Origin: Phenylobacterium aquaticum
GTDB taxonomy: Bacteria > Pseudomonadota > Alphaproteobacteria > Caulobacterales > Caulobacteraceae
Assembly: GCA_947378305.1 (NCBI GenBank)
Contig: CANCJJ010000001.1
Location: 1-64,000 of the forward strand
Direction of reading: 5' to 3'
DNA length: 64,000 bases
Below are positions 17,737-20,521 of the stretch, piece by piece (the first letter of the stretch is position 1; every line of letters starts with the position of its first letter). The position numbers and the translations under genes are program-made. The notes under the pieces are model-generated. The model saw only the letters and a program-made list of their open reading frames with translations, made no database searches and was not told where the DNA came from.

Positions 17737-17811
17737 GCGGGCGTAGTTCAGAGGTAGAACGCAAGCTTCCCAAGCTTGATGTCGGGGGTTCGATTCCCCC
17801 CGCCCGCTCCA
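17737..17811 (+). tRNA. tRNA-Gly (anticodon CCC), CCA encoded
   Basis: Acceptor GCGGGCG/CGCCCGC, D-arm GTTCAGAGGTAGAAC, anticodon stem CAAGC-TTCCCAA-GCTTG, T-arm GGGGGTTCGATTCCCCC, T discriminator plus CCA. Confidence 0.97.
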
Positions 17812-17836: not shown

Positions 17837-18052
17837 TCAGGCGACCTGACCGTCCATGCGGCCCCTGCTCGCCATGTGGGCGTGCAGTTTCTGAACCCTC
17901 AGGCTGGCCGTGCGCTCAAAGATGAAGGGCAGGGCGGCATGAACCAGACAGGCCAGGCCCGCCAGGATCAGCGACACGCCATAACCGCCCGCATGGGCGA
18001 AATGCTCGCCATAGGTTTCACCGACATCGTCGAGGTGGCGGGTGAGTGACAT
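17837..18052 (-). CDS. small membrane protein (DUF6356-like)
   Basis: MSLTRHLDDVGETYGEHFAHAGGYGVSLILAGLACLVHAALPFIFERTASLRVQKLHAHM; ATG at 18052. Confidence 0.75.
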   Translation of the reverse strand: MSLTRHLDDVGETYGEHFAHAGGYGVSLILAGLACLVHAALPFIFERTASLRVQKLHAHMASRGRMDGQVA

Positions 18053-18148
18053 GGGACGGCTCCAGTCTCTGCAGCTTGATGGGAGACCCCAGTCTGACGC
18101 AATCTCTGGAAAGAACATGGTTTAAATTCTGCTGATCTTGGCTATATG

Positions 18149-18180: not shown

Positions 18181-18642
18181 ATGACAGATATTCTTGATCC
18201 CATGGACCGCCGGCTCCTGCGGGAATTGCAGACGGATGCCAGCCTGTCCCTGGCGGACCTGGCCGAACGGGTCGGCCTGTCCCAGTCCCCGTGCTGGAAA
18301 CGGGTCAAACGGCTGGAGGCCCAGGGCATTATTGAACGCCGGGTGGCCCTGCTGGACCGGGAGCAGCTTGATCTGGGTCTCGTGGTCTTTGTCTCGGTCC
18401 GCGCCGGACGTCACGACCAGCTCTGGCTCGACCAGTTCACCAAGGAGGCGTCTGCCCTGCCCGAGGTCGTGGAATTCTACCGGATGAGCGGCGAGACCGA
18501 CTATCTGCTCAAGGTGGTGGTCCGAGACATTGCCGCCTATGACCGCTTCTACAAGCGCCTGATTGCCACCGCCGCCCTGGGCGATGTGACCTCAGCCTTC
18601 GGCCTGGAGCAGATCAAATACACCACGGCCCTCCCCATCTAA
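18181..18642 (+). CDS. Lrp/AsnC family transcriptional regulator
   Basis: LDPMDRRLLRELQTDASLSLADLAERVGLSQSPCWKRVKRLEAQGIIERRVALLD; C-terminal RAM domain. Confidence 0.96.
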   Translation: MTDILDPMDRRLLRELQTDASLSLADLAERVGLSQSPCWKRVKRLEAQGIIERRVALLDREQLDLGLVVFVSVRAGRHDQLWLDQFTKEASALPEVVEFYRMSGETDYLLKVVVRDIAAYDRFYKRLIATAALGDVTSAFGLEQIKYTTALPI

Positions 18643-18650
18643 ATTTGAGC

Positions 18651-19034
18651 CTAGGGCAGCTGCGACATAATGGTCGGCGCATCGAAATAGTCCCGCCAAT
18701 AGGTGATCAGGCCGTTGTGAACCTCATAGACCCCGGTCACCGGCAGCTCGACCCACTTGTCCCCGAACAGGTGCCGGTCCAGGCGTTCGAGAAAGACCAC
18801 GGGTCCGACTTCGGCTTCCCGCAGAACCCGAAACTCGTTTTCCGAGGTCGGTCCGAAAAACGGCTCCAGCACAGCGCGAATGCCCGCCGGGCCATGGACC
18901 GTCCCGATGGGCGGGGGATTGATATATTCGCAGTCAGGCGAGACCAGCTTCAGGGCCGCGTCATAGTCCAAAGGCTCCATGAGGGTCATGAACTGCCGCA
19001 CACAGGCGAGGGGGGACAGGGGGGATGCGGCCAT
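18651..19034 (-). CDS. nuclear transport factor 2-like / limonene-epoxide hydrolase-like protein
   Basis: VRQFMTLMEPLDYDAALKLVSPDCEYINPPP...VHGPAGIRAVLEPFF...WVELPVTGVYEVHNGLITYWRDYFD. Confidence 0.85.
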   Translation of the reverse strand: MAASPLSPLACVRQFMTLMEPLDYDAALKLVSPDCEYINPPPIGTVHGPAGIRAVLEPFFGPTSENEFRVLREAEVGPVVFLERLDRHLFGDKWVELPVTGVYEVHNGLITYWRDYFDAPTIMSQLP

Positions 19035-19089
19035 GACTGGGCTCCAGAATGTGACAGAGCCCCAAACCTAGGGCGTTTTGTGTCCGGTG

Positions 19090-19110
19090 CAATTACGTCC
19101 GGGGTAATGG
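19090..19110. promoter_or_regulatory. inverted repeat CAATTAC-N7-GTAATGG (copy 1 of a two-copy candidate operator)
   Basis: CAATTACGTCCGGGGTAATGG, about 56 bp upstream of the NTF2-like start; core ACGTCCGGGGTAAT matches 12/14 with the copy at 20026-20046. Confidence 0.65.
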
Positions 19111-19134
19111 TTTAAACCCAGTGTCGCGCCCCCA

Positions 19135-19974
19135 TCAGGCTGCCCCCTTCCCGCCTCCGGCCTTGCGAAACAGGGCCTCAGTCTCGGGATCGGCGGGAAA
19201 GAGGGTTTCGATCCTCAGATCATCGGCGGTGATGTCCTGGGCTGTGCCAAAGGTGGCGATCACGGCGAACATGGAAATCTTCAGGTCCTTGATCTGCAGG
19301 CTGAAGGGCATGACCGGCAGGAGGGCCGGGTCGGCGGCGGACCAGAGGATATGCGGCTCCTGAAGCGGGGCCAGATCGTCCAGCACGGCCATCATTTCCG
19401 ATCCAGCGACCGCCTCGGCCTCGCGCTGGGCCCGTCGCCACATGAGGGGACCTACGGCAGACCAGTTGGTCACGAAGGGTCGAATACCCAGGGGATGGAA
19501 AAACAGACGCATCAGATTGCGTTCCCCGCCCCCGATCCGCGCCCAGACATCCTCGCCCATCATGGCCCCCAGGCGGTCAAAGGGTTTGTTGGACATGCGC
19601 ACATTCCAGGCCCGGTCCAGGGCGATGGCGGGAAAGGGCTCATGGGCCGTGAGCATCATTTTCACCGCATTCATGACCTGCTCCATCTGCGGGTCATCCA
19701 GGGTGCGGGTCCGAAACAGGGTGGCAAAGCCCGCCGCCGTCAGCCAGGCATTGCGATCCCGCAAGGGCACATCGAGGGTCTCGCTCAGGTGCAGGATCAT
19801 GTTGCGGCTTGGCCGGGCGCGTCCGGATTCCAGAAAGCTCAGATGGCGCTGAGAGACGCCTGCCGCCAGGGCCAGGTCCAGCTGGGACAGGCGGCGCTTT
19901 TGCCGCCAGTCGCGCAGGAGACGGGGAAAGGCCAGGTCTGCGTCTGGCCGCGACTGTGTAATCAATTCCGACAC
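19135..19974 (-). CDS. XRE-family HTH regulator with MmyB-like C-terminal ligand-binding domain
   Basis: FPRLLRDWRQKRRLSQLDLALAAGVSQRHLSFLESGRARPSRNMILHLSETLDVPLRDRNAWLTAAGFA; GTG start at 19974 preferred to ORF start 20187. Confidence 0.92.
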   Translation of the reverse strand: MSELITQSRPDADLAFPRLLRDWRQKRRLSQLDLALAAGVSQRHLSFLESGRARPSRNMILHLSETLDVPLRDRNAWLTAAGFATLFRTRTLDDPQMEQVMNAVKMMLTAHEPFPAIALDRAWNVRMSNKPFDRLGAMMGEDVWARIGGGERNLMRLFFHPLGIRPFVTNWSAVGPLMWRRAQREAEAVAGSEMMAVLDDLAPLQEPHILWSAADPALLPVMPFSLQIKDLKISMFAVIATFGTAQDITADDLRIETLFPADPETEALFRKAGGGKGAA

Positions 19975-20025
19975 GTCCCACCCCTGTTTGCCACCCCCGT
20001 CTGTCGCCCGCCCCCTGCGACCGGT

Positions 20026-20046
20026 CAATAACGTCAGAGGTAATTG
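20026..20046. promoter_or_regulatory. inverted repeat CAATAAC-N7-GTAATTG (copy 2 of candidate operator)
   Basis: CAATAACGTCAGAGGTAATTG, flanked as GTCAAT...ATTGAC; about 52 bp upstream of the XRE start and about 50 bp upstream of the divergent ORF at 20096. Confidence 0.65.
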
Positions 20047-20095
20047 ACGCCCCGCTGCCGCCGGGGGGAAACTTGGATTAATGCGGGAGGGCGAT

Positions 20096-20521
20096 ATGTC
20101 TGGATTTTGGCGGCTATGGTTTTTCGTCTGGTGTCTGTCCATTGGCCTGTTCGGGGCCGTGCTGGCTGGCGGGGCGTTTGAGGCCACCAGCGCACCGGTA
20201 AGATTCGTCCTGACGACTCTTCATGGCCCGGGTCCCGTCGTCCTTGATCCCACCCTGCGGTTCAGCCTGGCGGTCATGGGCGCGGTCTCCCTGGGCTGGA
20301 CAGCGACCCTGGCGGTGATTCTGCGTCAGGCCATGGCCCTGGGCGATCCGGGGCGCGGCCTCTGGCAGGCCATTACCGCCGGACTGGTCACCTGGTTTGT
20401 CATCGACAGCACCCTGTCTGTTGCCACGGGATTCGGACTGAACGTCCTGCCCAACCTGGTCCTCGCTGGCATGTACGGAATTGGACTCGTGGGCAGCGGC
20501 GTTCTGAAGGACCGGACCTGA
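20096..20521 (+). CDS. conserved-looking small integral membrane protein
   Basis: Four predicted hydrophobic segments (MSGFWRLWFFVWCLSIGLFGAVLAGG...LVTWFVIDSTLSVATGFGLNVLPNLVLAGMYGIGLVGSGVL). Confidence 0.7.
   Translation: MSGFWRLWFFVWCLSIGLFGAVLAGGAFEATSAPVRFVLTTLHGPGPVVLDPTLRFSLAVMGAVSLGWTATLAVILRQAMALGDPGRGLWQAITAGLVTWFVIDSTLSVATGFGLNVLPNLVLAGMYGIGLVGSGVLKDRT

Follow-up and report, generated by a model that had tools for sequence, protein, structure and literature searches.

Two conserved dyads as predicted operators of an MltR/MmyB-type regulator and its epoxide hydrolase and membrane-protein regulon in Caulobacterales

In Phenylobacterium aquaticum (Caulobacteraceae), two near-identical inverted repeats bracket a single regulator gene, raising the question of which protein reads these dyads and which genes they serve. 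The window in which they lie is a stretch of 64,000 nucleotides (GenBank assembly GCA_947378305.1, contig CANCJJ010000001.1, positions 1 to 64,000 of the forward strand). A first-pass annotation had proposed an autoregulated set comprising an XRE regulator, an NTF2/epoxide-hydrolase-like protein, and a membrane protein, and this proposal is supported by the rarity of the dyads, their conservation at orthologous loci, and tests on the target genes. As judged from comparative sequence analysis, the dyads very probably serve as operators for the XRE regulator beside them, which is of MltR/MmyB type, and mark out its regulon. This confidence covers operator and regulon, and does not extend to the sign of regulation or the ligand. 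Across many relatives, the dyad precedes the same two kinds of gene, for the enzyme and for the membrane protein, at the same distance, which argues for a real, small, and apparently undescribed circuit.

The dyad pair and its conservation

Putative operator A, CAATTACGTCCGGGGTAATGG (19090..19110), is found in the gap between the regulator gene's 3′ end and the gene for a limonene-1,2-epoxide hydrolase (LEH) family protein. Putative operator B, CAATAACGTCAGAGGTAATTG (20026..20046), lies in the divergent promoter region between the regulator and a membrane-protein gene; neither operator is assigned a strand. The coordinates in the first-pass annotation were borne out, and the pair is unique in the window, where CAATWACGTCMGRGGTAATKG with up to three mismatches matches at operators A and B only. 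At the same threshold, none of 100 shuffles of the window contained even one match. Pattern matching across the 2.34-Mb genome returned no third good copy, the other matches being isolated and carrying three mismatches at best, and the motif is rare genome-wide.

The dyad had been described as CAATWAC-N7-GTAATKG. Its inverted repeat stands and its 7-bp spacer does not: the symmetric element is CAATTACCT-N3-AGGTAATTG, longer than the motif first described, so that most of the former spacer is part of the half-sites. A symmetric consensus built from 20 sites, CAATTACCTSNSAGGTAATTG, carries ~25 bits. At both operators the consensus half-site (CAATTAC) points to the target (LEH or membrane gene) and the weaker half points to the regulator. 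Operator A lies 24 bp past the regulator stop codon, and 55 bp separate its end from the LEH start; from operator B the distance is ~51 bp to the regulator GTG (19974) and 49 bp to the probable membrane-gene ATG (20096). These re-measured distances agree with the earlier values of about 56, 52, and 50 bp.

Nine close orthologues of the regulator (75–81%) were found among 100 relatives. All nine loci have two dyads ~900 bp apart, one before the regulator and one behind it or across its stop codon, with the gene order membrane gene, regulator, LEH-type epoxide hydrolase and the membrane-family gene divergent from the regulator. Operator A overlaps the regulator stop codon in most of these first nine orthologues, and its counterparts lie upstream of LEH genes genus-wide. 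One of the nine loci (L009) has a more distant member of the membrane family. The same module occurs in further genomes, including Aquidulcibacter, and is kept only in part at the three most distant orthologues (L055–L057, 62–74%). A close orthologue was present in 14 of 398 genomes in an order-wide sample, which makes the module patchy. This footprint is the decisive evidence, and it upheld the expectation that the motif is conserved upstream of orthologues. It also rules out a reading to which we give practically no credence, in which the dyads recur by chance, form a terminator hairpin downstream of the regulator, or are mobile-element copies. Operator A does sit just behind the regulator 3′ end, a possible place for a terminator, but the dyad arms are AT-rich and lack a T-run. 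The reading is further opposed by the shuffled windows, by the recurrence of the same sequence across dozens of genomes at a constant distance from gene starts, and by the unrelated flanks of the two copies.

The regulator and its predicted targets

The regulator (19135..19974, minus strand; GTG start placed by orthologue alignment) combines an N-terminal Xre-type helix-turn-helix (HTH_3, PF01381, 44.3 bits against a cut-off of 23) with a C-terminal PAS-like MLTR_LBD domain (PF17765, 81.1 bits against a cut-off of 26.3). It is divergent from the membrane gene with a shared upstream region, and this arrangement is conserved. A single-sequence PDB search found no relative of the regulator; its closest match was reached only by profile and fold. 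A profile of 32 homologues (positions 18–268) matched MltR (PDB 3pxp) over its full length (E 1.2e-5), and the predicted structure has 3pxp as its best fold match (E 9.6e-11), in a loose superposition with a whole-chain TM of about 0.5. Together with the Pfam assignment, these matches confirm the MmyB-like ligand domain suggested in the first reading. Xu et al. 2012 (PMC3406030) described the MltR/MmyB-like family, with a fatty-acid-bound structure and SDR/MDR or antibiotic neighbors; in their account MltR binds a fatty acid and MmyB is an activator. Judging from tree branch lengths, ligand domains are very divergent between regulator clades and the operator is nearly constant. These ligand domains may sense different compounds.

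The predicted target of operator A (18651..19034, minus strand), first labeled NTF2-like, encodes a protein of the limonene-epoxide-hydrolase family (PF07858, E 4.9e-40). Aligned to 5aih, it keeps the Y-x-N, R-x-D, and D (WRD) positions, of which Y, N, R-x-D, and D are presumably the catalytic residues of the family. The predicted target of operator B (20096..20521, plus strand; start by orthologue alignment, with the ORF extendable to 20081) is a small helical membrane protein of an unnamed family, as orthologue alignment and a confident helical model (pLDDT 91) affirm for the divergent gene. It has no Pfam family and no PDB relative by sequence, and a fold search gave no significant match despite that confident model. 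An alignment of the window protein with its homologues reveals an invariant W-x3-D-x3-S-x3-G-x3-N-x3-N stripe on one helix. At Aquidulcibacter-type loci a second, more distant copy of the family often lies directly 3′ of the LEH gene.

Beyond the LEH gene, the window contains an Lrp/AsnC-type regulator (18181–18642), convergent with LEH and divergent from a small ORF (17837–18118), and its sole tRNA gene, a tRNA-Gly (anticodon ccc; 17737–17811). The AsnC-type regulator was considered as the dyad binder and ruled out, no relative of it being detected in the flanks of orthologous loci.

More distant homologues extend the association of regulator and dyad. CCATTACCTSNSAGGTCATGG or a variant of it precedes the start of 19 of the 20 homologues at about 40% identity. 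In the recognition helix, the second residue co-varies with operator base 2, Gln occurring with A and Thr with C: SQRH is accompanied by A in 28 of 28 cases and STRH by a base other than A in 24 of 24 (52/52 in total), in a comparison based on a scan that omitted the outer two operator columns. A tree of the ligand domains implies that the helix residue changed independently only about twice, and the co-variation is therefore a strong consistency rather than a statistic, for which no p-value would be meaningful. This position, Gln or Thr, is predicted to be the specificity residue.

A search led by the motif and another led by the genes converge on the same targets. The former comprised 23 motif-scan matches away from any known regulator, chosen by motif and position with neighboring genes ignored. 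Downstream of them lay LEH genes in five cases, membrane-family genes in eight, and genes of a second small membrane family in three; one match each lay near SnoaL-like, YycE-like, and 4HBT thioesterase genes, and several had no evident target. Since a genome has at most two or three LEH or membrane-family genes, regulator-free matches beside such genes are far above chance. At locus L059, LEH and membrane genes diverge with two dyads between them and the regulator not alongside. In the gene-first test the operator was found upstream of 23 of 30 LEH genes and 23 of 27 membrane-family genes, mostly 40–60 bp from the start, under a scoring in which 99% of shuffled regions stay below 6 and operator sites exceed 10. 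The genomes used to train the matrix supply 10 of the LEH sites and 9 of the membrane-gene sites, and the remaining sites are independent. A site was present at 45 of 50 genes whose genome has the regulator versus 1 of 7 in genomes without it (Fisher p = 8e-5, phylogeny ignored), and the genes that lack it cluster in genomes with no regulator homologue (G007, G035, G039, G043, G049). There are exceptions in both directions: an LEH gene in G019 has the site with no regulator found in that assembly, and LEH genes in G022 and G031 lack it with a regulator homologue in the genome. By these comparisons, the predicted regulon reaches past the local locus to distal LEH and membrane-protein targets in relatives.

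An unlinked regulator that binds the dyads and also controls the XRE gene is a very improbable alternative. It would account for sites at LEH and membrane-gene loci that have no regulator alongside, but sites and regulator homologues co-occur and are mostly lost together. Every close orthologue of the regulator, and nearly every distant homologue tested, also has a site in its own promoter, and the helix residue tracks the operator base. All of this fits better with the adjacent XRE regulator as the binder.

Several loci add to the range of arrangements. In an Aquidulcibacter-type genome (G069), a third operator (L058:1524–1544) precedes a membrane-family paralogue by 50 bp, and the 3 kb covered at that locus contain no regulator. 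The second small membrane family (L078:975–1445, L079:1624–2025, L080:1105–1500; also L021 and L029) is unrelated-looking, has no Pfam match, and is preceded by the operator or adjoins a regulator homologue. A Sulfitobacter locus (L045, 600–3800), from a Rhodobacterales genome, has two regulator homologues, a membrane-family gene, and several dyads, and the association of dyad, regulator, and membrane gene therefore extends beyond Caulobacterales.

Promoter geometry and the predicted sign of regulation

In the LEH promoter, a putative −35 element (TTGCAC; 19087..19092, minus strand), placed by the register across 102 promoter flanks, overlaps operator A by 3 bp; analysis of the same flanks places a putative −10 element (TAGGTT; 19065..19070, minus strand) after a spacer of 16 bp. 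Operator B would serve two promoters, with a putative −35 for the membrane gene (TTGACG; 20044..20049, plus strand) and another for the regulator itself (TTGACC; 20023..20028, minus strand), each overlapping the operator by 3 bp and each followed by a weak −10 in the window genome. The gene-proximal dyad edge, which reads TTG or TGG in 95 of 102 flanks, would form the first half of the putative −35 hexamer, its three leading bases. A −10-like A-N3-T element stands 16–18 bp beyond that hexamer in 82 of 102 flanks, as compared to 2–19 matches in control windows outside this register. SnoaL-like, second-membrane-family, and distal targets have the same −35/−10 register, though not every one of them does. 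With its edge serving as the −35, the dyad would span roughly −53 to −33, and from the 16–18 bp register we infer a center near −43.

Class II activated promoters have the activator site near −41.5, in fixed register to the −10 element. If the operators are correctly assigned, class II activation at the target genes combined with autoregulation would, by this analogy, be slightly likelier than simple repression. It is favored by the center near −43, by the −10 register in several unrelated target families, and by the poor −35 boxes of LEH promoters (0.35 of 3 matches outside the dyad), and is in line with the description of MmyB as an activator (PMC3406030). A plain repressor at the same operators and targets is a serious contender, held with somewhat less than even confidence: its dimer would cover the −35 hexamers, and ligand would free LEH, the membrane gene, and the regulator. 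The dyad overlaps the −35 at all three promoters, an A is conserved at −35 position 4 of the regulator's own promoter, the ATTG edge of the operator alone supplies the TTG, and LEH and membrane genes persist with the operator absent in genomes lacking the regulator, all of which would suit repression. However, the fixed center across unrelated target families, the poor LEH −35 boxes, and the described role of MmyB fit an activator at least as well.

In the mechanism we propose, the regulator would act as a dimer on three promoters, namely its own and those of the divergent small membrane protein and the LEH-type epoxide hydrolase, reading the two ATTACC half-sites at the −35 edge of each. The PAS-like domain would sense a lipophilic signal, and the likely role of the circuit is to mount an induced response when a reactive lipid or epoxide is present; a lipid or epoxide as ligand is suggested by the fatty acid in 3pxp and by the LEH target. 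A wider interpretation, which we regard as doubtful, is a previously undescribed lipophilic-epoxide response of Caulobacterales, wherein a PAS-type sensor-regulator would switch on an epoxide hydrolase and a membrane family handling the same compound, from a dispersed regulon in some genomes and from one locus here.

Relation to known systems

Literature searches with the half-site strings returned nothing relevant, and outside the survey named below no paper searched had the half-site pairs together with XRE in a relevant setting. Nor was any paper found on a Caulobacter XRE with an epoxide hydrolase, on MltR with SDR, on an Aquidulcibacter epoxide hydrolase, or on LEH with XRE. A survey of XRE palindromes by Wang et al. 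2025 (PMC12565409), which cites Xu et al. (PMC3406030), lacks the half-site strings in its main text, and the passages searched do not mention an LEH/membrane regulon; its supplementary motif clusters may contain the motif. The MEME clusters of that survey, as far as its searched passages describe them, resemble the present case in concerning XRE regulators, palindromes in their own promoters, and computational prediction. An MltR-type regulon whose predicted core targets are LEH and the unnamed membrane family is apparently undescribed. MltR/MmyB-like regulators are common, but the literature searched yielded neither an operator nor a regulon for their proteobacterial branch. What is gained is a concrete predicted 21-bp operator, a predicted specificity residue, and a target set across Caulobacterales, along with a handle on the unnamed membrane-protein family and on the natural role of LEH enzymes.

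Class II activation by an HTH_3 protein is exemplified by lambda cI at PRM, where the operator lies near −42/−43 and slightly overlaps the −35. The predicted operator center near −43, the slight −35 overlap, and an HTH_3 dimer on a near-palindrome are shared with that system. In contrast, the present case is not a phage switch, has one operator per promoter and a PAS-like ligand domain, and its activation is proposed by analogy.

With the limonene-1,2-epoxide hydrolase family (PF07858; PDB 5aih, 1nww), the window protein shares the family profile and the catalytic positions; it differs in that its gene would be a regulated unit of a transcription-factor module, and its enzyme activity is predicted. 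As in the MltR/MmyB-like family, the regulator gene is divergent from a putative target, and palindrome binding as a dimer is predicted. Beside it stand genes for an LEH-type epoxide hydrolase and for an unnamed membrane protein, in contrast to the SDR/MDR or antibiotic genes that are typical of such regulators in actinomycetes, where they are not defining. The closest characterized relative, MltR (Caur_2278, Chloroflexus aurantiacus, PDB 3pxp), has the same HTH_3 and PAS-like MLTR_LBD over its full length at about 20% identity, and the window regulator differs from it in two predicted features, a regulon spread over several loci and an operator defined at 21 bp.
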